Part shown: positions 1,083 through 34,302 of the stretch, one piece after another
Layout: every line of letters starts with the position of its first letter
Position numbering within the stretch: position 1 is the first letter of the stretch
Assembly: GCF_900116205.1 (NCBI RefSeq)
Contig: NZ_FOZS01000004.1
Span: 186,001-250,000, forward strand
Origin: Halostagnicola kamekurae
Lineage (GTDB): Archaea; Halobacteriota; Halobacteria; Halobacteriales; Natrialbaceae
DNA length: 64,000 bases
Direction: 5' to 3'
Notes under the pieces: model-generated
Databases searched by the model: none
What the model was told of the DNA's origin: nothing
Seen by the model: the letters and a program-made list of their open reading frames with translations, nothing else
Made by a program: the position numbers and the translations under genes

Positions 1083-2159
1083 ATGTCACGTCAAACTCGA
1101 GTCTTGGCCGTCGCCAATGATCGGTCATCGTTACGACACTGGACCGAGGTACTCGAGGAGTACGAGGACATAGAAGTTCGATCGGCACAGGGGGTTTCCG
1201 AGGGTCTTTCGGTAATAACAGAGGCGGATATCGACTGTGTGCTGGTCGATCTATCGACGCCACAGTTGAATCTCGAGTTCATTCGGACGGTCGCTGACCG
1301 CAATCCGGAGCCACGATTATTACTCGTTACCGAGGACGAAGCAGACAAGACGATTAACAACGCGATCGAAGCCGGTGCAACTGATTACGTTCCGAAAGCA
1401 ACTGCGAACTCGTCAGACGGAAGATTCTCCCAGATACTACATGAATCGACTGAACCCGATCAAGCCGAATCGAACACGAGTTCGCGCACATCAACACGGA
1501 TCGACGTGGTTGCACCGAGCGAGTCGGAAACTGATGCCGAGTCCGATTTACCGTCCGACTCGGCCTCGCAGGATGAGCAATCGGGATCGCCACCACTCGA
1601 ATACACCCCGCAAGCGGGGACGAGTACGCTGGTCCAATCGAAATCGAACGTCGAAACCCAGTTTTCGTGTTCGAGCGTGGCCGAGACAAACGGCCCAAAG
1701 CGAAGTGTCGTGATCCGGTATACACAACTCGGGGAACAGGAGCTGTCGCGGATCGTCACCCAATGTGAGCAGACCACACTGATAGCTATTGGGTACTCGC
1801 AGTCAGTTCCCGACCACATCGAAGACGAACTCGAGGTGATCGAGATTACCAGTCCGACGGACCTCACTCGACTCGGAATCGTAACGACTGGCATCGTTCA
1901 AAACTGGGAGACGGACCGGGCGGAAACGGTGCTTTGTTTCGACGGGGTAAACGTTTTGCTTCGGTATAAATCGGTCAGGCAGGTGTTTCAGTTCTTGCAC
2001 GTGTTCCTCGCGAAACTGCAATCGTCTCAGGTGACGTCTCATTTTCACATCGATCACGGGGCCGAAGACCCACAGGATGTCAACTCTCTGAAACCGATTT
2101 TTGACAACGTTATCGAACTACGCTCTGAGGGGGTCGTGGTCGAATCGGAACTCGAATGA
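1083..2159 (+). CDS. Receiver-domain protein with C-terminal DUF7504-like domain
   Basis: The protein has 358 residues. Residues 1-110 resemble a response-regulator receiver: the phosphoacceptor lies in DCVLVDLSTPQ and the conserved Lys in DYVPKAT, but the usual N-terminal acidic pair is reduced to VANDR, so phosphorylation may be weak. Residues 115-210 are a low-complexity Ser/Thr/Asp/Glu linker. The C-terminal 150 residues resemble the haloarchaeal DUF7504 (RecA/KaiC-like) domain, with VLCFDGVNVLLRYKSVRQVF and a later HFHIDHGAEDP segment. Such proteins are thought to be signalling outputs without DNA binding. It is the first gene of a rightward signalling run, 83 bp before the HalX regulator. 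Domain names are inferred and the function is unknown. Confidence 0.75.
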   Translation: MSRQTRVLAVANDRSSLRHWTEVLEEYEDIEVRSAQGVSEGLSVITEADIDCVLVDLSTPQLNLEFIRTVADRNPEPRLLLVTEDEADKTINNAIEAGATDYVPKATANSSDGRFSQILHESTEPDQAESNTSSRTSTRIDVVAPSESETDAESDLPSDSASQDEQSGSPPLEYTPQAGTSTLVQSKSNVETQFSCSSVAETNGPKRSVVIRYTQLGEQELSRIVTQCEQTTLIAIGYSQSVPDHIEDELEVIEITSPTDLTRLGIVTTGIVQNWETDRAETVLCFDGVNVLLRYKSVRQVFQFLHVFLAKLQSSQVTSHFHIDHGAEDPQDVNSLKPIFDNVIELRSEGVVVESELE

Positions 2160-2242
2160 CTTTCGGCGGATTCGAAAGATATTCCAACCAACCAAAATTG
2201 CCAATACAATTTTCACGGATGACGCTGAAGGGGTAGATACGA

Positions 2243-2812
2243 ATGGCGACATCACCGACGGTCCTAATCGTCGAAGACGAACGTCTTCTGGGCGAGCTGT
2301 TCGAGACGTGGCTGGAATCAGCCTACACCGTCCGCGTCGCAAACGATGGGGAGCAGGCACTCGAGATGCTCGACGACGAAGTCAGTATGGCGCTTCTCGA
2401 TCGGCGGATGCCTGGACTCTCAGGGGATGCGGTACTCGACGAAATACGTAATCGGGGGTACGACTTCCCGGTCGCGATGGTAACGGCGGTCGACCCGGAC
2501 TTCGATATCGTCGAAATGAGGTTCGACGACTATCTCGTCAAACCAGTGTCGCGAGAGACGCTTCTCGATCTCGTCGACAGCCTGATTACGCTGCCGTCAT
2601 ACACGGACGCCGTCCAGCAGTACTTTCAGCTTTCAACGAAGAAGGCCGCCCTCGAGGCGAACAAATCGCAGGCCGAACTCAATTCGAGCGAGGAGTACGA
2701 AAAACTCCTCGAGAAACACGCTGAGGCGAAGAATCGAGCCGATACCAGGGTCGAATCGATCTCGGATCAGATTTCCTTCTCCGATCTCGACGATAAATCG
2801 TATTTCTCATAA
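2243..2812 (+). CDS. HalX-type response regulator
   Basis: This 189-residue protein has a canonical receiver (residues 1-115) with the acidic pair in VEDERL, the phosphoacceptor in MALLDRRMPG, a Thr switch in AMVTAV and the Lys in YLVKPVS. A roughly 60-residue helical C-terminus beginning near LPSYTDAVQQYFQLSTKKA matches the HalX domain found almost only in haloarchaeal regulators. HalX has no recognised DNA-binding motif and its output is not settled. The nearby orphan kinases are the obvious candidates for phosphodonor, though partner choice cannot be read from sequence. Confidence 0.88.
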   Translation: MATSPTVLIVEDERLLGELFETWLESAYTVRVANDGEQALEMLDDEVSMALLDRRMPGLSGDAVLDEIRNRGYDFPVAMVTAVDPDFDIVEMRFDDYLVKPVSRETLLDLVDSLITLPSYTDAVQQYFQLSTKKAALEANKSQAELNSSEEYEKLLEKHAEAKNRADTRVESISDQISFSDLDDKSYFS

Positions 2813-3042
2813 ACGATCGCTGACCGAGGATAGACGGGGGATATCGTGAGGACATTCGTCTACTACCGGTAGAACGTCGTCGCCGGCTACAATTCGTTGT
2901 CTTCCCGGGTATCCTCGATAGCGAGCGGAGGAGCGAATCGAGCGAGTAGACGAACCAGTTAGTGTAAACTATACGGGGATAAGACTCATCTGCATTGAGA
3001 TCCCTAGAACAGGGTAAGTTACGACTCGACTATGACACGGCT

Positions 3043-4185
3043 ATGACACGGCGGCGTCGGAAACGCGGACGCTCAAGCGGGTTGCGTAGCCGCCGCTCTG
3101 TGTTAGCTCTCGCCGCGAGTGCTCTCGGGATCGGAAGCGTGTACGGGAGCGAAGCGTTTTCGGGTTCAACCGCCCGCAGATCGTTAGGGATCGGGGTGAG
3201 CGACGACAGCCGGTCGCTACTGGCTATCGAGCCACAGGATCCCGTTGTAGGGGGCGGTGACAGAACGAAACTGTTCCAATTGACGAACAACTTTGCGGGA
3301 GCACTCGACGACATCTCTGTCGAAGTCGAAAACCCGAACGCCGTCGAACTGGACTTCCATGCGTTTACTACACCGGAGCCGCTCGAGCCTGGTGAGTCGG
3401 GAGCGATACGTGCGAGTATTTCGGCTGGGTCGAGCGTCACCGAAACGGTGGGTATAATCATCCGTGCGTCTGGTGATGGTGAGTCGGTTGTGGCAAGACG
3501 AGACCTAACGATTTCATATGAGTCGGAGTCCAACTCGGGAGTGAGCGCCCGTGTCGATGACCTCACGTCGATAGATACGGATGATCCGGTCTTTTATGTT
3601 TCATACGACACACACGGTAGCGCAGGCAGCGTACGAATCACTGCCTCGGACCAGAATACGCACGGAGCGAGTGATACGGAAACCGTCATCGGTGAGCGAG
3701 GGGGGACGTTGCTCCAACCCGGCTGGAACGCTGGCGCGACGTTTGACATCACGATCGAAGCTGTGGATGACGGGACGGTAACCGAGGACCGAACGCTCGT
3801 TACCATTGCAGATACGCAGAACCCGAGTGGCAACGACGATCTCGGACTGGCGGAGAGTGCTAGCCTCAAAACGGCGTCTATCGCGGACAGTTCGAGTCCC
3901 ACCCGAGACGCCGTACACTTCGACTTTAGCTACGCCGTCACGCCCTCCGGAAGTTTCTCCGAAGTCGGCTTATACACGCTCAACACCAGTGGAACCGGCG
4001 GGGTCGCTGATCGAACCCGCGATCACCGAAGCGGCGATAGCATCTCCGTTTCGACAAACTACGGTGCAAATACTCCGTATAAATTGGCACTCCTCGTATT
4101 TGACGGAGATGGCGTCGTCGTGGATAGTCACATTACAACAGATGTTGCGGACGGAGTACCCCAGAACGGCCCGATAGGGGGATAA
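3043..4185 (+). CDS. Tat-type exported protein of unknown function
   Basis: The ATG at 3043 gives 380 residues; an in-frame TTG 48 bp upstream would only lengthen the N-region. The N-terminus is very basic, with SRRSVLALAASALGIGS: a twin arginine before a hydrophobic stretch, as in haloarchaeal Tat substrates, without an obvious lipobox cysteine. The mature part is acidic and beta-rich. Residues 55-170 look like an Ig-like or archaellin-adjacent fold of the kind seen in haloarchaeal surface proteins (LFQLTNNFAGALDDISVEVE), and a second beta-domain follows. It lies between the HalX regulator and a PAS kinase. No enzymatic motif is recognised. A surface or cell-wall role is inference. Confidence 0.7.
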   Translation: MTRRRRKRGRSSGLRSRRSVLALAASALGIGSVYGSEAFSGSTARRSLGIGVSDDSRSLLAIEPQDPVVGGGDRTKLFQLTNNFAGALDDISVEVENPNAVELDFHAFTTPEPLEPGESGAIRASISAGSSVTETVGIIIRASGDGESVVARRDLTISYESESNSGVSARVDDLTSIDTDDPVFYVSYDTHGSAGSVRITASDQNTHGASDTETVIGERGGTLLQPGWNAGATFDITIEAVDDGTVTEDRTLVTIADTQNPSGNDDLGLAESASLKTASIADSSSPTRDAVHFDFSYAVTPSGSFSEVGLYTLNTSGTGGVADRTRDHRSGDSISVSTNYGANTPYKLALLVFDGDGVVVDSHITTDVADGVPQNGPIGG

Positions 4186-4384
4186 GCGAGGGAGTCGAGC
4201 GATACATCTTTTCCCCATCGAACGTGCGATGACAAAGAGAAAGTCCCTATAAGACGGATCGTGCTTCGTAGTTCAACGTTTGTCTCAGAATATTCGAGTA
4301 GATATTAATTTATTGAGCTATAACAACCATTGATAGTCGGCGGTAGAGTTTTATGGATGGGGCGATAATTATACTTAGCAATAG

Positions 4385-5434
4385 ATGGCCAAAGAGACCG
4401 ATGAAGTTCGCTCTGCTGAGTTTTACCGAACGCTCGTCCGAAACGCTGCGGAAGGGATGTTAACAATCGATAAGAATAGTGACATCGTGTACGCGAACCC
4501 GGCCATTGAGGATATTCTCGGATATTCTCCCGAGGAATTGATCGGTTCTTCGAAGATGAAGATCATCCCCGAGCGCCTCCAGTCTGCACACGCGAATGCA
4601 TTAGCATCCTACGTTGAAACGGGAGAACGGAACATCGACTGGAACGGCTTCGAACTACCAGCACTTCATAAAGACGGCCACGAAGTACCGACACTAATCA
4701 GTCTCCGTGAACACGATCACGATGGGAAACAGTACTTCACCGGCATTATCCGGGATATAACCGAGCGGAGACATCGCGAGAACCAGCTACGCGACCAGAA
4801 AGATCGTCTCAATGAGTTCTCGGAGATTCTCACTCACGACATTCGAAATCCCCTCTCGATAGCCCAAGGGCATGCAGAATTAGCCCAAGAGGAGCACGAT
4901 ATTCCAGAAGCAGAGCAAATCATCGAATCGCTCGAGCGTATCGATTCGCTCATCGAAGATGTAAATGCACTCACGCAGAATGGCGATACGATCGTCGACG
5001 TGGAACCGGTTGCTATCGAGACTTGCGCCACCGAAGCATGGCGGAACGTGAGTACTGCAAGTGCGGAGTTATGCGTCGAAGGAGCGCTCGGGAGGGCCAA
5101 CGCAGACGAAAGTCAACTGCACGGGTTTTTCGAGAACCTGTTTCGCAATGCGGTTGAACACGCGGGAACCGATGTCGCCATCCAGATCGGACTATTACCG
5201 GATCGGAAGGGGATGTACGTCGAAGATACTGGTTCCGGAATTCCAGAATCAATACGTGGTGATATCTTCGAATACGGGTACACGACGAATGATAATGGGA
5301 CGGGGTACGGACTTTCGATCGTCCAACAGATCGTAAACGAACATGGGTGGGAAATCGCCGTGACTGAAAGCGATGCAGGTGGCGCTCGCTTCGAAATCAC
5401 AGGGATGGAGTTCGTTGACGCAACTGATCGATAA
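4385..5434 (+). CDS. PAS-domain histidine kinase
   Basis: The protein has 349 residues. Residues 10-125 form a PAS domain (VYANPAIEDILGYSPEELIG and a PAC-like end at GIIRDITERR). The dimerisation and phosphoacceptor helix carries FSEILTHDIRNPLSIAQGH, and residues 240-345 form a HATPase_c domain with N-box FFENLFRNAVEHA, G1-box VEDTGSGIP and a glycine-rich lid at GTGYGLSIVQQI. All catalytic boxes look intact. There is no transmembrane segment, so it is cytoplasmic, with the PAS domain as the probable sensor. It shares its kinase architecture with the two larger hybrids downstream, which suggests expansion by duplication. Confidence 0.9.
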   Translation: MAKETDEVRSAEFYRTLVRNAAEGMLTIDKNSDIVYANPAIEDILGYSPEELIGSSKMKIIPERLQSAHANALASYVETGERNIDWNGFELPALHKDGHEVPTLISLREHDHDGKQYFTGIIRDITERRHRENQLRDQKDRLNEFSEILTHDIRNPLSIAQGHAELAQEEHDIPEAEQIIESLERIDSLIEDVNALTQNGDTIVDVEPVAIETCATEAWRNVSTASAELCVEGALGRANADESQLHGFFENLFRNAVEHAGTDVAIQIGLLPDRKGMYVEDTGSGIPESIRGDIFEYGYTTNDNGTGYGLSIVQQIVNEHGWEIAVTESDAGGARFEITGMEFVDATDR

Positions 5435-6543: not shown

Positions 6544-6866
6544 CTCCACAATTCGCCTGTGTCGTGATACCATCGACTCCGTCGGTATCGATGGCAGAGT
6601 TAGGTGTTCGGGCAGTCGTGTGATAGAAGGCGGACTCGGTCGAATTCACAGTCGCGTCAATTTCCCGAGGAAGCGTTGTACCTCCATCCGAACGCGCTAT
6701 TGATCGGTACACGAACAGTTGAGTGTCGATTGAGATTCCAACTCGAGGATGTATGTGGTTCACTGAACGGAGCGTAGCTTCTGATAGGTGTCCACTAGTT
6801 TTATCTGTCTTTCCCAACGATAGTCGATATCTGAAAAACAGAGCCAATTCAATGGTCGTACTTACT
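6544..6866. other. Gene-free stretch
   Basis: About 320 bp lie upstream of the first hybrid kinase. Nothing recognisable as a gene, repeat or structured RNA was found. Confidence 0.4.
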
Positions 6867-8300
6867 ATGTCGGCTGAAATCACACGAGTCTTACACGTCG
6901 ATGACGACCCTAATTTCAGTGACGTTGTTACGTCATTTCTCGAATCGGAAGATGAGGCGCTCGAGGTCGTTACCGAGACGTCCGTAGAGGATGGACTCAG
7001 CCAACTCCAGAAGGGCAGCGTTGATTGTGTCGTTAGCGATTACGATATGCCGGAAACGAATGGGTTAGATTTTTTCGAGGCGGTTCGAGAATCACACCCG
7101 GAGATGCCGTTCATCCTCTTTACCGGTAAGGGGAGCGAAGAAATCGCAAGCACGGCGATCAGTCGCGGCGTCACCGATTACTTACAGAAGGCAGGGGGGA
7201 CCGAGCAGTACGAGGTGCTTGCAAACCGCATTCGAAACAGCGTCGACCGGCACCGAACCGAGCGCGAGCTCCGCCGGAATCGGGAATTTCTCACGCGCGT
7301 TCTCAATCTCAATCCGTCGGCCATCATCGTGCTAGATGAGTGCGGAGAAATTGTTCGAGCAAACGAACGCGCCGAAACGATTCTCGACCTCCCCGAATCA
7401 GAGATAACGAGTCGCTCTTTCGATGACGCCGAATGGGACGTCGTGGATGAAGACGGGTGTTCGATTTCGAAGGACGCGTTGCCGTTCGGGCGTGTACGTG
7501 AGAGCGGCGAATCGGTATACGAAATCCAACACGGTATCAGACGGGCCGATGGAGACGTCGTATGGGTCTCGATAAACGCCGCCCCGCTGTGGGACGAACA
7601 CGACGAAATTCAATACGTGGTCACGGTCGTGTCCGATATAACATCGAGAAAACGGAAAAATCAGTCCCTGAACGCGACTATCATACAACTCGAGGGATTC
7701 GGAAATGTCCTCTCTCATGACCTCGGAAATATCCACCAAATTGCACACGGCCGTCTCGAACTGGCACGCGATACGGGCGAGCAAGAACACTTCGAGGCTG
7801 TCGAGGAGTCGATAGACCGAGCCGAAGGGATGTTAGACGAACTGACAACGGCAATGCAGGCCGGCAGTATCGTAGAGGAGGTTGCCACGGTTGCGGTGGA
7901 TGACGTATTCGATCGAGCATGGCAATCTCAGGCAACAGCGGACGCAACGAGGGAAGTAGAGGAAGGCATTCGGATCGAAGCGAACGAAATGGCATTACAG
8001 CGGATGTTCGAAAATCTGGTCCGCAATGCGTTTGAACACGGGGATAATACGGCAACAGTTCGAGTGGGCTCACTCGCAGATGGTTTCTACGTCGAAGATG
8101 ATGGGCCGGGAATCCCGAAGGACGAGCGTGAAAACGTCTTCGAGCCAGGATATACGACGAAAAAAGGTGGAACCGGAACAGGACTCGTTAGCATTCAACA
8201 GATAGCTCTCGCGCACGGATGGGATACGGAGATTCGAGACGGGTCTGATGGAGGTGCTCGATTTAACTTTACAACGTCGAACCGGGCTGCTGACCGATGA
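6867..8300 (+). CDS. Receiver-PAS-histidine kinase hybrid with altered H-box
   Basis: The start at 6867 begins directly before the receiver (MSAEITRVLHVDDDP); an in-frame ATG at 6852 is an alternative. The 477 residues hold a receiver (1-125; phosphoacceptor in VVSDYDMPET, Lys in YLQKAGG), a PAS domain (about 140-260, ending VVSDITSRKR), a dimerisation helix and a HATPase domain (N-box FENLVRNAFEHG, G1 VEDDGPGIP, lid GGTGTGLVSIQQI). The H-box reads LSHDLGNIHQIAHG: the His is present, but the usual H-D-[IL]-R-N-P is replaced by H-D-L-G-N-I. The receiver-first order is common in haloarchaeal phosphorelays. It is closely related in its receiver to the next gene. Confidence 0.85.
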   Translation: MSAEITRVLHVDDDPNFSDVVTSFLESEDEALEVVTETSVEDGLSQLQKGSVDCVVSDYDMPETNGLDFFEAVRESHPEMPFILFTGKGSEEIASTAISRGVTDYLQKAGGTEQYEVLANRIRNSVDRHRTERELRRNREFLTRVLNLNPSAIIVLDECGEIVRANERAETILDLPESEITSRSFDDAEWDVVDEDGCSISKDALPFGRVRESGESVYEIQHGIRRADGDVVWVSINAAPLWDEHDEIQYVVTVVSDITSRKRKNQSLNATIIQLEGFGNVLSHDLGNIHQIAHGRLELARDTGEQEHFEAVEESIDRAEGMLDELTTAMQAGSIVEEVATVAVDDVFDRAWQSQATADATREVEEGIRIEANEMALQRMFENLVRNAFEHGDNTATVRVGSLADGFYVEDDGPGIPKDERENVFEPGYTTKKGGTGTGLVSIQQIALAHGWDTEIRDGSDGGARFNFTTSNRAADR

Positions 8301-8394: not shown

Positions 8395-10551
8395 ATGTAC
8401 GGCGAGGACAGAGTAGACATGGATTCAACACTGCTTCCTGATTCGAAGACGATCGAAATCCTCCATATCGACGACGATTCCAGCTTCGCGGATCTGGTCG
8501 CAACGTTTCTCGAGCGCGAACGCGACAGCTTCAGTGTCCACACCGAGACCGATCCCGAAGCCGCCCTCGAGAGACTCGAGATGCGCGAGTCGGCTTTCGA
8601 CTGTGTCATCAGTGATTACGAAATGCCCGGTCTCGACGGACTCGAGCTTTTAGCGCGTGTCCGTGAGACCCATCCCGATCTTCCGTTTATTCTCTTTACG
8701 GGCAAAGGCAGCGAAGAGATCGCCAGTGAGGCAATCACTGCAGGTGTTACCGACTACTTGCAGAAAGCCGGCGGAACCGAACAGTACCGCGTCCTCGCCA
8801 ACAGGGTCCAGAACGCCATCGAACGATACTGGGCCGAACGATACCTAAATAGAGGCCTCGAAGCCATTGAAACCGCACAAGACGGTATCGGAATTCTCAG
8901 CAACGAGGGGTACATCGAGTACGCGAACGCCGCCTACGCTGACCTCCTCGGCTACGAGCGTGAGGAACTCGTCGGGCTCCACTGGGAGGCCCTCTACCAC
9001 GAGGACGATATCGACCGCGTCTACGACGTTCTCATTCCGGACGCCCGCGATGGGCGCTGGCACGGCACCACATCGTTCGTTCGGAAGGATGGAACGGAAC
9101 TCGAGGTCGAGCACACGCTCTCGTATACTGACGACGACTCGCTCATCTGTACGTTCACACCACCGACGCGTGCTGACGGAACGACGACCAACCTATCCGC
9201 GAAGGAGCAAGCGATGGACGAGGCACCGATCGGAATTCTCCTGACAGACCCTCATCAAACGGACAATCCGATCATCTACGCGAACGACGAGTTCACCGAA
9301 CTCACCGGCTACGAGAAACCAGAGGTGATTGGGCGGAACTGCCGATTCCTCCAGGGTCGGGCAACCGAGGACGATCCGATCGCGAAGCTTCGAACCGCGA
9401 TCGACGATCGGGAACCGGCTACTGTCGAGTTACGGAACTACCGGAAAGACGGCACGGAGTTTTGGAACCGTGTCCGCATCGCACCGTTGTTCGACGACGA
9501 CGGTGACCTCGATCTCTTCGTCGGGTTTCAGGACGATATTACGGACCAGAAACTGTACGAGGAACGATTACAGTCACAGGCGTCCCGCCTTGAAGCGATC
9601 TTCGAGCACTCGCCGGATATGATCGCCGTCCACGATATCGACGGCGGTATCCGCGGCGTCAACCAACGACTGTGCGAAGAACTCGGATACACGCGGGAGG
9701 AACTCCTCGACCGAGACGTCTGGGACCTCGATCCGACGGCGGATCCCGACCGATCGCGAGCGTTCTGGGAATCGCTACCACCGAACACGCCACAACGGTT
9801 CGAAGGGAAACTCGAGCGGAAAGACGGATCGACGTTTCCGATCGAGATCCACATCATCCGTCTCGACCTGGACGGCGACGATCGGTTCTTTGCAATTGAC
9901 CGCGACATCAGCGAGCAAGTGGGGCGCGAACGCGAACTCGTCCAGCAAAACGAGCGGTTGGATCGGTTCGCGAGCGTCGTAAGCCACGATCTACGGAATC
10001 CATTACAGGTCGCGGGTGGACACCTTGAATTGCTGCGCGAAGATTGTCATAGCGACCACATAGACGAGATCAGCGACGCGTTGGGTCAGATGGAGACGCT
10101 GATCGAGGACTTACTGCTGTTCGCGCAAGCGGGCGAAGAGACGATGGACATCGAACCGGTACGGTTACCCGCAATCCTTCGGTCGTGTTGGGAGACGATC
10201 TCAACGGAGAACGCGACCCTCAGGGTCGAAACCGAACGGACACTCAGGGCAGACCACGATCAACTCTACCAACTCCTTTCGAATCTCGTACAGAACGCCA
10301 TTGAACACGGTGGCCCCGACGTGACGATCACGGTTGGGGACACAGAAACCGGATTCTTTATCGCCGACGACGGCCCCGGGCTTCCAGAGACGGACGGCGC
10401 GGAGATATTTAACGCAGGCTACACGACCGCCGCCGATGGTACGGGGTTTGGCCTCAATATCGTCAAGGAGGTCGCCGAGCGCCACGGGTGGGATATTACA
10501 GCGACGAACGAACAGCGAGGTGGTGCTCGGTTCGAAATCGAACTCGAGTGA
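8395..10551 (+). CDS. Receiver-PAS-LOV-PAS-histidine kinase (candidate blue-light sensor)
   Basis: The product is 718 residues, with an alternative ATG at 8419. Order: receiver (1-130, phosphoacceptor in VISDYEMPGLDG), a PAS domain (about 150-270), a LOV-type PAS (about 275-395), a third PAS (about 405-510), an H-box VVSHDLRNPLQVAGGH and a HATPase domain with LSNLVQNAIEHGG, ADDGPGLPE and GTGFGLNIV. The LOV segment carries GRNCRFLQG, in which the Cys (about residue 316) is the FMN-adduct cysteine of LOV photosensors, preceded by FTELTGYEKPEVIG and followed by NYRKDGTEFWN, both typical of LOV domains. FMN binding and light sensing are therefore plausible but unproven. The kinase boxes are intact. 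Confidence 0.88.
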   Translation: MYGEDRVDMDSTLLPDSKTIEILHIDDDSSFADLVATFLERERDSFSVHTETDPEAALERLEMRESAFDCVISDYEMPGLDGLELLARVRETHPDLPFILFTGKGSEEIASEAITAGVTDYLQKAGGTEQYRVLANRVQNAIERYWAERYLNRGLEAIETAQDGIGILSNEGYIEYANAAYADLLGYEREELVGLHWEALYHEDDIDRVYDVLIPDARDGRWHGTTSFVRKDGTELEVEHTLSYTDDDSLICTFTPPTRADGTTTNLSAKEQAMDEAPIGILLTDPHQTDNPIIYANDEFTELTGYEKPEVIGRNCRFLQGRATEDDPIAKLRTAIDDREPATVELRNYRKDGTEFWNRVRIAPLFDDDGDLDLFVGFQDDITDQKLYEERLQSQASRLEAIFEHSPDMIAVHDIDGGIRGVNQRLCEELGYTREELLDRDVWDLDPTADPDRSRAFWESLPPNTPQRFEGKLERKDGSTFPIEIHIIRLDLDGDDRFFAIDRDISEQVGRERELVQQNERLDRFASVVSHDLRNPLQVAGGHLELLREDCHSDHIDEISDALGQMETLIEDLLLFAQAGEETMDIEPVRLPAILRSCWETISTENATLRVETERTLRADHDQLYQLLSNLVQNAIEHGGPDVTITVGDTETGFFIADDGPGLPETDGAEIFNAGYTTAADGTGFGLNIVKEVAERHGWDITATNEQRGGARFEIELE

Positions 10552-19928: not shown

Positions 19929-21179
19929 CTACCCGTAGATGGGAAACTCCTGGCAAAGGTGCTCGACTGTCGAAGCGACCCGTTCGTGAACGTCGTCGTC
20001 TTCGGGATTGTCGAGCACGTTAACGATAAGGTCGGCGACGGTTTTCATCTCTTTTTCTCCGAATCCACGGGTCGTGAGCGCCGGCGTACCGACGCGAATC
20101 CCGCTGGTCACCATCGGCGACCGCGTCTCGCCGGGGACAGTGTTCTTGTTAACGACGATATCGACGTCGGACAGCAGCTCTTCGGCCTCCTTTCCCGTGA
20201 TATCGGGGTGGGAGTCACGGAGGTCGACGAGCAGTAGGTGCTTGTCCGTTCCACCACTCACCAGCGAGAGTCCTCGGTCGTTGAACGTATCGGCGAGCGT
20301 ATTCGCGTTAGCTATTGTCTGTATGGCGTAGGACTGGAACTCATCGGTGCCCGCTTCTGCGAACCCTGCGGCCTTGCCGGCCACGCTGTGCATCAGCGGC
20401 CCGCCCTGCGCGCCGGGAAACACTGCGGAGTCGACGTCGTCCGCGAACTCCTGGTCGCACATGATGATGCCGCCGCGGCCGGCGCGGATCGTTTTGTGGG
20501 TACTCCCGGTGACGAAGTCCGCGTGCTCGGTCGGCGACGAGTGAACGCCAGCCGCGATGAGGCCAGTCACGTGAGCGATGTCCGCGAGGTGGTAGGCGTC
20601 GACGTCGTCCGCGATATCGCCGATGCGTTCGTATTCGAATTCGCGGGGATACGCCGACGAGCCGCTGACGATCATGTCCGGGTCGAATTCGCGCGCGTGA
20701 CTCTCGAGTTCGTCGTAATCGATGTACCCCGTCTCGGGGTCGACCTCGTACTGTTCGACGTCGTAGAGCTCTCCCGAGAAGTTGACGCTGTGACCGTGAG
20801 AGAGGTGGCCGCCGTGGGACAGCGACAGCGACAGTATCTTATCGCCCGGTTCGAGCGTGGAGAAGTAGACGCCCATATTGGCCTGCGTGCCGCTGTGGGG
20901 TTGCACGTTGGCGTGGTCGACCTCGAACAGTTCCTTCGCGCGTTCGATCGCGAGTTCCTCCACCGTGTCGACATGCTGGCAGCCGCCGTAGTACCGGCCG
21001 CCGGGGTATCCCTCGGCGTACTTGTTCGTGAGGACGCTCCCCTGCGCTTCGAGCACAGCTTTCGAGACGTGATTCTCGGAGGCGATCATCCCCAGTGTCG
21101 ATTCCTGCCGCTCGCGCTCGAGGTCAATGGCTTCGGCGGTGTTCGGATCTATCTGCTCAAGCGATTGGTTGAACGCCAT
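19929..21179 (-). CDS. glyA: Serine hydroxymethyltransferase
   Basis: This PLP enzyme interconverts glycine plus 5,10-methylene-THF with serine. The 416 residues are the usual archaeal length. The PLP Lys is at residue 229 in VTGSTHKTIRAGRGG, with the substrate-binding EGYPGGRYYGG (residues 57-66) and SGTQANMGVY motifs intact, and TSGIRVGTPALTTRG near the C-terminus. In this context it would condense glycine released by the dehydrogenase-GcvT fusions with a methylene unit they also generate. A broken ridA copy lies just upstream on the other strand. A C-terminal glyA fragment also occurs at 46510-46685, next to an intact ridA. Confidence 0.96.
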   Translation of the reverse strand: MAFNQSLEQIDPNTAEAIDLERERQESTLGMIASENHVSKAVLEAQGSVLTNKYAEGYPGGRYYGGCQHVDTVEELAIERAKELFEVDHANVQPHSGTQANMGVYFSTLEPGDKILSLSLSHGGHLSHGHSVNFSGELYDVEQYEVDPETGYIDYDELESHAREFDPDMIVSGSSAYPREFEYERIGDIADDVDAYHLADIAHVTGLIAAGVHSSPTEHADFVTGSTHKTIRAGRGGIIMCDQEFADDVDSAVFPGAQGGPLMHSVAGKAAGFAEAGTDEFQSYAIQTIANANTLADTFNDRGLSLVSGGTDKHLLLVDLRDSHPDITGKEAEELLSDVDIVVNKNTVPGETRSPMVTSGIRVGTPALTTRGFGEKEMKTVADLIVNVLDNPEDDDVHERVASTVEHLCQEFPIYG

Positions 21180-29721: not shown

Positions 29722-30732
29722 TTACGAGTTATAGGCCTCTTGAGCGAGCTGATGGAAGCGGTGGACGGTGTGTTCGTTGGGGCCGAGTTGGGCCTGGGCG
29801 AGCGCGCCGGTTTTGAGGCCTTGCCACTGGCGCTCGACCAGCTCGAAGTCCTCCTCTTGGAGCTGGCGGCTCGTGCGGACGAACTCGCGTTCCTCGTCGG
29901 TGAGTTCGCTGTCGCGGAAGTAGTAGTCCGCGATGAGTTGGAACCGGTCGGTGTCGATCGGATCGACGATGTAGGTGCCGTAGCCGTCGGCGGTGCCGTA
30001 CATGTTGACCGTGAAGTTCGGCCAGAGGTAATGGAACTGCGCCTCGTGCTCGTCGTGGATCCGCATCTCGTCCTCGACATCCTCAGCGTGCGTGTAGTGG
30101 AGGACCCAGTGGTAGTCGTTGACCTCGAGTTCGGACTCGTTGAGCGAGATGCCTTTGATCCAGTCCTGGTGGTTGGCCTGGCAGTGGTCACACTCCGAGT
30201 AGTTGCTCGCGAACACCTTCCAGTTGCACTCGACCTCCGAACTGATCCGGGTGGCAAGTTCGTACTCCTCGAGGGGCAGCGCCTCGAGTCGATCCTTCAT
30301 GACGCCGGCCTGTTCGGCCAGCGGCATCGGATCCTCGCTGAGGTTGACGAAGAGCAGCGGCCCGATGCTGTCGACGTGCATCGACTCCGCATCGGCGAGC
30401 TCGTCCGGATCGACGCGACGGGGATCGGTCATCGGCGCGTCCTCGAGGAGCACGTCGCCGTCGCGAGCGGAGAAGTTGGCCACGGCGCGGACGTCACCGT
30501 CGTCGTCTCGAGCGACGATCAGATTCCGGCCACCGAGGGTTCGCGTGAAGTACTGGCCGGGATCGCTGATGCTGTTGGCGTGGCCGGCGTACACCCAGTA
30601 CTGGCCGAAAATCTTCTCTTTTTCCATCTCGAAGACGTCGCCATCGGTGAAATACCGGGCCGGCAGCGCGTTTGTCTCGTCCGTGATGTCCGCGCTCACC
30701 GCCTCGGTCTGGCTTTGGTTCCATTGCGTCAT
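29722..30732 (-). CDS. Rieske-less paralogue of glycine-betaine-type oxygenase alpha subunit
   Basis: The 336-residue product is nearly identical to the Rieske oxygenase at 33145 except in residues 65-118. There the first ligand pair C-x-H is changed to Ser88 and Arg90 (ANFSARDGD), and about 41 residues holding the second C-P-Y-H pair are deleted, so a [2Fe-2S] Rieske cluster cannot form. The mononuclear iron site is kept: Glu180, His183 and His188 in YSECDHCQANHQD, the same spacing as in carnitine oxygenase CntA. The frame is open to the normal stop. It may form mixed trimers with its paralogue, regulate it, or be a young pseudogene. The start at MTQW matches the paralogue. Confidence 0.85.
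   Translation of the reverse strand: MTQWNQSQTEAVSADITDETNALPARYFTDGDVFEMEKEKIFGQYWVYAGHANSISDPGQYFTRTLGGRNLIVARDDDGDVRAVANFSARDGDVLLEDAPMTDPRRVDPDELADAESMHVDSIGPLLFVNLSEDPMPLAEQAGVMKDRLEALPLEEYELATRISSEVECNWKVFASNYSECDHCQANHQDWIKGISLNESELEVNDYHWVLHYTHAEDVEDEMRIHDEHEAQFHYLWPNFTVNMYGTADGYGTYIVDPIDTDRFQLIADYYFRDSELTDEEREFVRTSRQLQEEDFELVERQWQGLKTGALAQAQLGPNEHTVHRFHQLAQEAYNS
30539..30674 (-). repeat. 136-bp identical block, copy A
   Basis: This block inside the Rieske-less gene is identical, base for base, to 34085-34220 in the intact paralogue and covers codons for about residues 20-65. Both genes lie in direct orientation about 3.5 kb apart. Confidence 0.9.
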
Positions 30733-31841
30733 GCGGTAGCACATTTGGGGGCGTTCCGAAAAAGCGTTCACCAGTTATATGGAATCCCATTATATGGTCG
30801 GTTTCCGTCTTCGGATATCAGATAGCTCCGCGATATCGATTTGACCGTCTCGAGCCGGCGACTCTTACGACCGACGTTCTAGTGTCGAGCCGCTTCATGC
30901 GCTTGAATCGCTCCGATACCGCCGTATTTACGCAGGGATTCTCGGGAAACAGATCGTGAAACACAAAACCTTAGATGTCGAACCTTTTGTTGATGGAGCG
31001 CGATAGCTCTGGCTGCGTTTTCGAATGGAACTCCGAGTTCGGTGCGGAAGAGACGGAAATAGAACTGCTGCCGGATCCGTCCGATCACGGATGGACGACG
31101 GGATATCGCCTATACTTTTCGACTGCGTAAACGTGGGAGGCAGGATCGCAGTTTCGGTGTCCCAGTTCGCCACGGTCTATCGGCTACCACGACCTTGGAC
31201 GCCCTCTTTCGGACGCTGCAATTCGGCACGCGATGGGGGTCAGCGGCAGATAATGCCCCCACGCGCCGATGTGGGCGACAGGTCCGCTGGCCGACGAGAA
31301 CGGTTGAGTCGTTCGAACGTCGAGCTATCGATCGGATTTCTGTCATCCGTACGTGTTCGGACTCGACACTAGAACGTCGGTCGTAAACGCGACCTATTAC
31401 AAGTATACGCATGTAATTCCTTATCGGCTCGAGATCGCTGACCGGAATCGTCCGTACGAAGCCGTTCGCTGTTCGATTCTATGATATCGAGACCGCGACC
31501 GGAGATCGGTGACCGTTCCGTGACGTTCGCGAACTCGCATAGTATCGAATCTGTCACGATGTGTTTCACGAACGCACTCGATCCGCTCGACTCGTCCGCG
31601 ATCTCGGTCAGTTCACGATCAACGCGATAGCGATCCCGCCTGGTGCCAGCAGACAAGTTCGTGGGCGAACCGCGATGGTTCCCCAGGATCGAACCGGACG
31701 GCTCTGCAGGTGGTGCGGGTACCTCCCACCTCTCAGAGCGGAATGATTACCCTGACCGTCGGGCACGGTCAGTCGGCGTGAGTCGCCCGCCTGTCGGTCG
31801 AAGCAGTCAACTATTTCGGTCGACGGGCGAGAGAACCGAGT
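30733..31841. other. Long non-coding stretch with promoter of the Rieske-less gene
   Basis: About 1.1 kb hold no gene that I can support. At the left end, on the minus strand, the promoter region carries the direct repeat CCATATAA-7 bp-CCATATAA followed by CTGGTGAACG, close to a CTGGTTAACC in front of the intact paralogue. A minus-strand frame at 30879-31088 ends KYGGIGAIQAHEAARH; it resembles nothing known to me and may be a gene remnant. Confidence 0.45.
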
Positions 31842-33144: not shown

Positions 33145-34278
33145 TCACGAGTCGTAGGCTTCCTGCGCGAGTTGGTGGAAGCGGTGGACGGTGTGTTCGT
33201 TGGGGCCAAGTTGGGCCTGCGCGAGCGCACCGGTTTTGAGGCCTTGCCACTGGCGTTCGACCAGTTCGAAGTCCTCCTCCTGGAGCTGGCGGCTCGTGCG
33301 GACGAACTCGCGTTCCTCTTCGGAGAGTTCGCTGTCGCGGAAGTAGTAGTCCGCGATGAGCTGGAACCGGTCGGTGTCGATCGGATCGACGATGTAGGTG
33401 CCGTAGCCGTCGGCAGTGCCGTACATGTTGACCGTGAAGTTCGGCCAGAGGTAGTGAAACTGCGCCTCGTGCTCGTCGTGGATCCGCATCTCGTCCTCGA
33501 CGTCTTCGGCGTGGGTGTAGTGGAGGACCCAGTGGTAGTCGTTGACCTCGAGTTCGGACTCGTTGAGCGAGATGCCCGTGATCCAGTCCTGGTGGTTGGC
33601 CTGGCAGTGGTCACACTCCGAGTAGTTGCTCGCGAACACCTTCCAGTTGCACTCGACCTCCGAGACAATCCGAGTCGCGTGTTCGTACTCTCCCAGCGGA
33701 AGGGACTCGAGTCGATCCTTCATGACGCCGGCCTGCTCGGCCAGTGGCATCGGATCCTCGCTGAGGTTGACGAAGAGCAGCGGCCCGATGCTATCGACGT
33801 GGACGTCGTTGAGTCCGTTTGACTCGCAATCGAACTCCTGTATTTCGTCGTCCTCGAGATCGGGGTTCAAGCCCGCTTCCTCGAAGCTTCTGGGCGTACT
33901 CTGAAGGTTCCCGTTCAGGTCGTACGTCCAGAGGTGGTACGGGCACCGAATTCGCTTCCCCTCGCTGGGATCGGTCATCGGGGTATCCTCGACCATCTTC
34001 GAGCCGCGGTGGGCGCAGACGTTGTCGAACGCCTTGATATCCCCCTCGTGACCGCGGACGATGATCAGTTGGCGTTCGCCGATAGTTCGCGTGAAGTACT
34101 GGCCGGGATCGCTGATGCTGTTGGCGTGGCCGGCGTACACCCAGTACTGGCCGAAAATCTTCTCTTTTTCCATCTCGAAGACGTCGCCATCGGTGAAATA
34201 CCGGGCCGGCAGCGCGTTTGCATCGTCCGTGATGTCCTCGCTCACTGCTTTCGTCTGGGAGTCGTCCCACTGTGTCAT
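33145..34278 (-). CDS. Rieske non-haem iron oxygenase alpha subunit, glycine betaine monooxygenase type
   Basis: The 377-residue product has a complete Rieske domain (about 45-160) with ligands Cys88-x-His90 (NVCAHRGS) and Cys112-x2-His115 (RCPYHLWTYD). The catalytic domain has Glu221, His224 and His229 in YSECDHCQANHQDW. A Glu at the bridging position, rather than Asp, is the mark of quaternary-ammonium oxygenases such as CntA and GbcA. With the BCCT transporter and methyl-group-handling genes nearby, demethylation of glycine betaine to dimethylglycine plus formaldehyde is the best reading. No reductase subunit gene is in the window, so electrons must come from elsewhere. The start at MTQW was chosen because both paralogues share it. 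Confidence 0.9.
   Translation of the reverse strand: MTQWDDSQTKAVSEDITDDANALPARYFTDGDVFEMEKEKIFGQYWVYAGHANSISDPGQYFTRTIGERQLIIVRGHEGDIKAFDNVCAHRGSKMVEDTPMTDPSEGKRIRCPYHLWTYDLNGNLQSTPRSFEEAGLNPDLEDDEIQEFDCESNGLNDVHVDSIGPLLFVNLSEDPMPLAEQAGVMKDRLESLPLGEYEHATRIVSEVECNWKVFASNYSECDHCQANHQDWITGISLNESELEVNDYHWVLHYTHAEDVEDEMRIHDEHEAQFHYLWPNFTVNMYGTADGYGTYIVDPIDTDRFQLIADYYFRDSELSEEEREFVRTSRQLQEEDFELVERQWQGLKTGALAQAQLGPNEHTVHRFHQLAQEAYDS
34085..34220 (-). repeat. 136-bp identical block, copy B
   Basis: This block is identical to 30539-30674 in the Rieske-less paralogue. It is the longest run I could confirm by eye within about 1 kb of highly similar direct repeat. Confidence 0.9.
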
Positions 34279-34302
34279 ACGATACCAATAACACAATGGG
34301 AC

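Follow-up and report, generated by a model that had tools for sequence, protein, structure and literature searches.

Introduction

Can a haloarchaeal histidine kinase join a blue-light input to a phosphorelay? The question is raised by a gene of Halostagnicola kamekurae (8395..10551, + strand; an intact ORF of 718 aa with no internal stop) within a 64,000-nucleotide stretch of contig NZ_FOZS01000004.1, referred to here as the window. A sequence-only reading had described its product as a LOV-type photosensor inside a receiver-fronted archaeal histidine kinase, in which light and phosphorelay signals could be merged. In 2014, 167 archaeal LOV proteins were on record, none of them investigated by then, and archaeal LOV kinases carried RR, GAF, and PAS as their only additional units (PMC4844311). 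Kinases with an N-terminal receiver account for almost 20% of archaeal REC proteins, and up to 40% may not be phosphorylated; as of 2018, no receiver-fronted archaeal kinase had been reported as experimentally characterized (PMC5847659).

The window protein is read here, with a probability of roughly 0.8, as a predicted soluble haloarchaeal histidine kinase that would respond to blue light. Its activity would most likely be changed both by blue light and by phosphorylation of the receiver. The sections below describe the domains of the protein, its relatives, and the fate of its photoactive cysteine among them.

Domain organization

Pfam places the domains in the order receiver, PAS, LOV, PAS, HisKA, and HATPase, all on the + strand. 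The receiver covers residues 22-128 (8458..8778; Response_reg, E 4e-22), and its Asp74, Thr102, and Lys124 are intact by motif. Three PAS stretches separate it from HisKA. The first, drawn from Pfam PAS stretches and model secondary structure, spans about residues 146-257 (8830..9165). The LOV domain is the second (residues 274-392; 9214..9570), and the third (residues 395-515; 9577..9939) is a relative of the solved PAS domain 3bwl, as found by Pfam, VIA-align, and alignment to 3bwl. The protein ends in HisKA (residues 522-581; 9958..10137; E 3e-14) and the ATP-binding HATPase_c domain (residues 620-717; 10252..10545; E 2e-21), which together hold the phospho-accepting His and the N, G1, and G2 boxes of a sensor histidine kinase (Pfam and residue check). 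An N-terminal receiver leading through PAS domains to HisKA-HATPase is the layout of the receiver-fronted archaeal kinases, REC-(PAS)n-HisKA-HATPase, as defined in PMC5847659. The order first read from the sequence, with LOV between two other PAS domains and behind a receiver, therefore stands, as do the archaeal host (class Halobacteria) and the receiver-fronted kinase, with Asp74, Thr102, Lys124, and His531 all in place. A Bat-type LOV regulator was considered and rejected, because at E 0.01 or better Pfam finds neither GAF nor HTH_10 and the C-terminus is HATPase_c.

The full-length AlphaFold2 model has a pLDDT of 82.3 and a pTM of 0.32; the domains are thus trusted, and their relative arrangement is not. 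VIA-align superposes residues 264-718 on the Brucella LOV-PAS-kinase structure 6ph4 (393 aligned, rmsd 17.7, Z 20.5) and residues 381-505 on the Haloarcula PAS domain 3bwl (Z 19.7, rmsd 2.0, 46% identity), and its list for the full-length model covers mainly the receiver and LOV parts. A PDB search with the first PAS domain gave no solved relative at E 1e-6.

The LOV domain

By every available sequence and model-based fold test, the second PAS domain is a canonical LOV domain. The best PDB match to the window protein in a phmmer search is the LOV domain of YtvA (2pr5, E 5e-37), and the matches listed are, by name, mostly LOV proteins or LOV constructs. The NCBIfam YtvA profile aligns to residues 271-402 with 186 bits, under its whole-protein cut-off of 250, as expected when a single domain matches. 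In alignment to YtvA-LOV, the pocket residues N315, R317, Q320, N348, N358, and Q379 are all intact, and we take these to be the flavin-contacting positions of LOV domains. The GRNCRFLQG motif carries the putative adduct-forming Cys316 (codon at 9340..9342), as first noted from the sequence. A published LOV search pattern (PMC4844311) matches the window protein once, ending at Cys316, and is absent from both flanking PAS domains. Aligned by motif, the aromatic triad is F300-Y306-F318, and Phe-Tyr-Phe is the canonical triad type (PMC12202551).

The predicted fold agrees. AlphaFold2 modeling of residues 262-402 with a 38-row alignment gave a pLDDT of 91.9 and a pTM of 0.82. Foldseek with this model lists the Meiothermus LOV domain 9vf7 first (E 1.9e-15), followed at the head of the list by Brucella LOV-HK, YF1, and YtvA (2pr5, TM 0.84), and VIA-align also matches LOV structures. 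The strength of the sequence match is far beyond chance, and a degenerate or chance LOV motif was rejected on the 2pr5 and Foldseek matches and on the intact Cys and pocket residues. The presence of the conserved FMN-contacting Asn and Gln residues had been proposed as a check on the photosensor; the aligned residues are there, and the model contains the LOV fold. The original observation is thus confirmed, and its interpretation is partly supported, as regards the identity of the sensor, by sequence and model. For the window kinase, we infer FMN binding, a photocycle, the direction in which light acts, solubility, receiver phosphorylation, partners, and output.

Distribution and mobility of the family

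LOV-like matches are widespread around the host. With at most 36 candidates scored per genome, 117 of the 125 genomes of the host's taxonomic family match the LOV segment at an E-value of 1e-25 or lower, and 27 of the 30 loci returned by this survey keep the Cys. At E 1e-180, at least 47 of the 391 class genomes, the host's own included, carry a long relative of the whole protein, and these genomes belong to 17 of 86 genera; this is a lower bound, since two candidates were scored per genome at that threshold. The 49 relatives compared below comprise these 47 class rows, the window's own gene among them, plus L050 and L039 (G109); L051 and L052, which duplicate L072 and L073, were left out, and 38 of the 49 fall in A1 and A2. 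The host's own genome contains a second LOV-like match (C2, 54%) and a distant PAS (C3, 25%). Read by eye, the translation of the other LOV protein of that genome (L002) is of a PAS-LOV-GAF-HTH type. LOV matches also fall in open frames of 1500-2060 codons in four places (G011:C2, G017:C1, G015:C1, and G083:C3), perhaps very large multi-sensor proteins.

Several lines of evidence bear on the mobility of the gene. Forty plasmid records match the window kinase at E 1e-60, the best being those of Haloarcula litorea (73%), Salarchaeum JOR-1 (71%), Halostagnicola larsenii (66%), and Natrinema salinisoli (65%). Named genome records reach 72-75% in Halospeciosus flavus (plasmid), Halobacterium sp. 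KA-4, and Halorubrum sp. CSM-61, above the 66% of the same-genus relative. A tree built by quick search, with the LOV columns left out and 22 of 46 inner branches starred, groups the window gene with rows of other taxonomic families in a clade of 14 rows (support 97) and puts the same-genus gene in a separate seven-row clade of the host's own family. Forcing the window gene into the own-family clade was rejected (AU p 0.0003, for a group chosen after the tree was seen). The GC content is 0.52-0.54 over the first 20 kb of the window and 0.59-0.66 from 20 to 52 kb. The history of the window gene is most simply read as one of horizontal acquisition. That the kinase gene moves between taxonomic families and is found on plasmids is added by the present analysis.

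Linkers and signal transmission

The kinase core is constant across the family. His531 (9985-9987), the phospho-acceptor of HisKA, and Asn634, Asp658, Gly660, and Gly662 are kept in all 49 relatives. The phospho-acceptor Asp74 of the receiver (8614-8616) is kept in 46 and lost in three, so receiver phosphorylation is not indispensable to the protein. The linkers after LOV are nearly as constant, as counted in a single alignment. The DIT-like motif of the third PAS lies 27 residues before His531 in 49/49 relatives, and the LOV DIT lies 33 residues before a fixed point in the third PAS in 48/49. The distance from the receiver to the first PAS varies, with 48 residues in 33 rows, 55 in 10, and 47 in six, and the step from 48 to 55 equals one heptad. 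By count alone, the 10 rows with 55 residues fit the L106-L115 clade (10 rows), whose first PAS is just 14-18% identical to that of the window protein. Heptad-dependent linkers carry light signals in the LOV kinase YF1, and the near-invariant linkers after LOV would fit coiled-coil transmission as reviewed there (PMC6798134).

A mechanism can be proposed on this basis. The LOV domain would bind FMN, and blue light would drive formation of an adduct between the flavin and Cys316. The resulting change may travel along the helix that follows the LOV DIT motif, cross the third PAS, and reach the HisKA dimer, where autophosphorylation at His531 would be altered. Another kinase may phosphorylate the N-terminal receiver at Asp74, and the receiver and the two non-LOV PAS domains would feed additional signals into this helical spine. 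In this way a single protein would integrate blue light with a phosphorelay, as the sequence-only reading had suggested.

The activity of the protein could also be of another kind. Such histidine kinases can be bifunctional, and light moves YF1 between kinase-active and phosphatase-active states (PMC6798134), which would be compatible with a protein that is chiefly a light-controlled phosphatase, or that passes phosphate through its own receiver. That receiver lies N-terminal to the sensors, unlike in the C-terminal hybrid layout, and C-terminal hybrids are rare in archaea and confined to Methanomicrobia (PMC5847659), which makes such a role quite unlikely. A light-responsive kinase remains the preferred reading.

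Loss of the adduct cysteine in relatives

The adduct Cys is kept in 42 of the 49 relatives, and all six pocket residues are intact in 41 of those 42, the sole exception being G305, with His in place of Gln379. The remaining seven have lost the Cys: G271 has Arg, G096 has Thr, and G002-G005 and G192 have Trp. G096 retains the whole pocket, and the other six lack three to six of its residues. Receiver, kinase, and linker lengths persist in all seven. Since the kinase is kept where the Cys is lost, light is not indispensable to the protein.

Two other roles for the LOV domain must be weighed against these counts. One is that it serves in the cell as a flavin redox sensor and that the light adduct is incidental. 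LOV domains that lack the Cys still signal, by way of the flavin semiquinone, and BAT, a halobacterial LOV protein that is naturally Cys-less, responds to flavin reduction (PMC4682037). The Thr in the intact pocket of G096 would suit this role. Retention of the Cys in 42/49 relatives would be needless for a pure redox sensor, and a redox role is accordingly considered unlikely. The second is that the domain is a mere structural spacer and the kinase answers to its receiver or its other PAS domains. The persistence of kinase, receiver, and linker lengths in the Cys-less relatives would be expected of a spacer, but the intact flavin pocket of 41/42 Cys-bearing rows would not; moreover, LOV is the most conserved domain against several relatives, at 86% identity for L050 and 85% for L072, compared with 72% and 70% for the kinase. 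A spacer is therefore highly improbable. For the window protein itself, blue-light sensing through Cys316 is the reading retained.

On the tree built without LOV columns, the pattern of Cys loss requires at least four independent changes, namely two to Trp, one to Thr, and one to Arg. Treating both Trp lineages as one event was rejected on that tree (AU p 5e-85, with groups chosen after the tree was seen). Rates of change were compared as plain Nei-Gojobori dN/dS counts over 10 chosen pairs. In the Trp genus, three pairs gave 0.19, 0.28, and 0.34 for LOV, and the other domains of the same pairs gave 0.18-0.34. Cys-bearing pairs gave LOV values of 0.06, 0.08, 0.09, 0.13, and 0.34, the last from G381/G389 and equal to the maximum in the Trp genus. 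LOV peaked at 0.39, for G192 (Trp) against G234. The range of 0.19-0.34 in the Trp genus suggests that the altered domain is under purifying selection, and thus repurposed rather than decaying.

These observations lead to a tentative proposal, which we hold at somewhat below even odds. One mobile haloarchaeal family of receiver-LOV kinases may have switched repeatedly from blue light to another input, through at least four Cys changes, three of them accompanied by loss of at least half the pocket; kinase, receiver, and linkers were kept, and the altered domain would have been repurposed. A narrow literature search found no report of repeated Cys loss inside one receiver-LOV kinase family. Natural Cys-less LOV domains are documented elsewhere, with about 70 entries and light signaling through the semiquinone (PMC4682037), and three of 28 LOV sequences from Lake Diamante have Pro or Phe in place of the Cys (PMC12202551, 2025). 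The family offers a natural matched set, with a photoactive Cys, a Thr in an intact pocket, and a Trp in a rebuilt pocket. Two questions thus become testable in one scaffold: whether the adduct is needed, and how receiver and light inputs combine on the helical spine.

Gene neighborhood and other features of the window

A receiver-PAS-HATPase kinase gene (6723..8300, + strand; 525 aa as listed; Pfam) ends 94 bases upstream of the LOV kinase gene, and its product is a possible partner. In the neighborhoods of 14 relatives, the best match to this upstream kinase is the LOV kinase itself. Across 15 loci (L036-L046, L050-L052, and the window), no gene besides the kinase recurs in more than three, and no response regulator partner was found in the flanks. 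The three nearest named relatives (L050, L051, and L052) have a zinc-ribbon-like ORF of 74-100 aa, as called, on the opposite strand 3' of the kinase; a six-frame reading by eye saw none in the window stretch. Genes for receiver-DUF7504, REC-HalX, and PAS-HisKA-HATPase proteins occupy window positions 1083-5434, and for the last of these, relatives at 65-73% lie close to other receiver kinases in L051, L055, and L057. The Bac_rhodopsin profile has no match in the host's own genome and equally none in control genomes, so this negative does not indicate absence.

Farther along, the window encodes a 349-aa paralogue of a ring-hydroxylating-oxygenase alpha subunit (29722-30771, - strand) with the catalytic domain and no Rieske domain, adjoined by an intact copy with both domains (33145-34296, - strand). 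Loss of the Rieske domain is common to all 15 long-match loci (L137-L151, 72-92% identity), in which the NYSECDHCQANH iron-site motif is kept; the Rieske motif is present in all four loci of the other kind (L152-L155). The paralogue looks like a conserved Rieske-less subunit, judged from these comparisons, and not a fresh pseudogene. A narrow literature phrase search found no relevant paper on it. Window positions 22226-52539 also hold two DAO-FAO_M-GCV_T proteins and a zinc alcohol dehydrogenase and, by eye, a CobW-type GTPase, FolD, a BCCT transporter, a PurU-like protein, and FolC-FolP. This region looks like a cluster for methylated-glycine or betaine demethylation and C1 metabolism. ARAGORN calls a tRNA-Cys at 20320-20409 (- strand) within a glyA-like ORF on the same strand (19929-21179), and the call is therefore probably false.

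Comparison with known systems

Among studied proteins, the parent kinase of ALovD-1 from Halonotius (WP_120100563, 726 aa) is likewise a histidine kinase with three PAS domains, of which the second is LOV, and the ALovD-1 photocycle runs at salt concentrations up to 3 M (PMC12202551). L132 and L133 were taken for orthologues of this parent, on stretches that fit 726 aa, an NCRYLQ motif, and a Tyr at the stated place. Their LOV domain is 61% identical to that of the window protein, and only the LOV and PAS stretches match: receiver, HisKA, and HATPase give no match at E 1e-4, and the N-terminus is at most receiver-like by eye. The H-box is HNLRN in L132 and L133 and SHDLRN in the window protein, and ALovD-1 has Tyr at two positions where the window LOV has Phe. 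With no kinase match at that threshold, the window kinase was rejected as an orthologue of the ALovD-1 parent.

A solved structure exists within the window kinase's own family. The entry 3bwl (HTR-like protein of Haloarcula marismortui, PAS domain only) is 100% identical over a 110-residue aligned stretch to the third PAS of L115 (G240). L115 keeps the LOV Cys. Over its full length it shares about 45% identity with the window protein; for the first PAS the figure is only 17%, so that domain is perhaps a different one. The title of 3bwl does not mention a place in a LOV kinase.

The best full-length structural analogue is the LOV-HK of Brucella abortus (6ph2, 6ph3, 6ph4, and 6pps), which shares the LOV-PAS-kinase order. 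Its solved construct, 15-489, has neither a receiver nor a PAS domain ahead of LOV, and its kinase is of the HWE type. YtvA (2pr5) is the best LOV sequence match, and the same photochemistry is expected; its output domain is STAS. In the engineered YF1 (4gcz), LOV is joined directly to the kinase, unlike in the window protein.

The archaeal LOV kinases and the REC-(PAS)n-HisKA-HATPase proteins are of the same kind as the window protein, and the available text of PMC4844311 and PMC5847659 names none with PAS domains on both sides of LOV. The window protein is an ordinary but well-formed example of a kind already known in haloarchaea, and as a protein it is one more LOV kinase for a list that has existed since 2014. 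The present analysis adds the family's presence in at least 47 of 391 class genomes, its mobility, its near-invariant linkers after LOV, and its repeated loss of the Cys.
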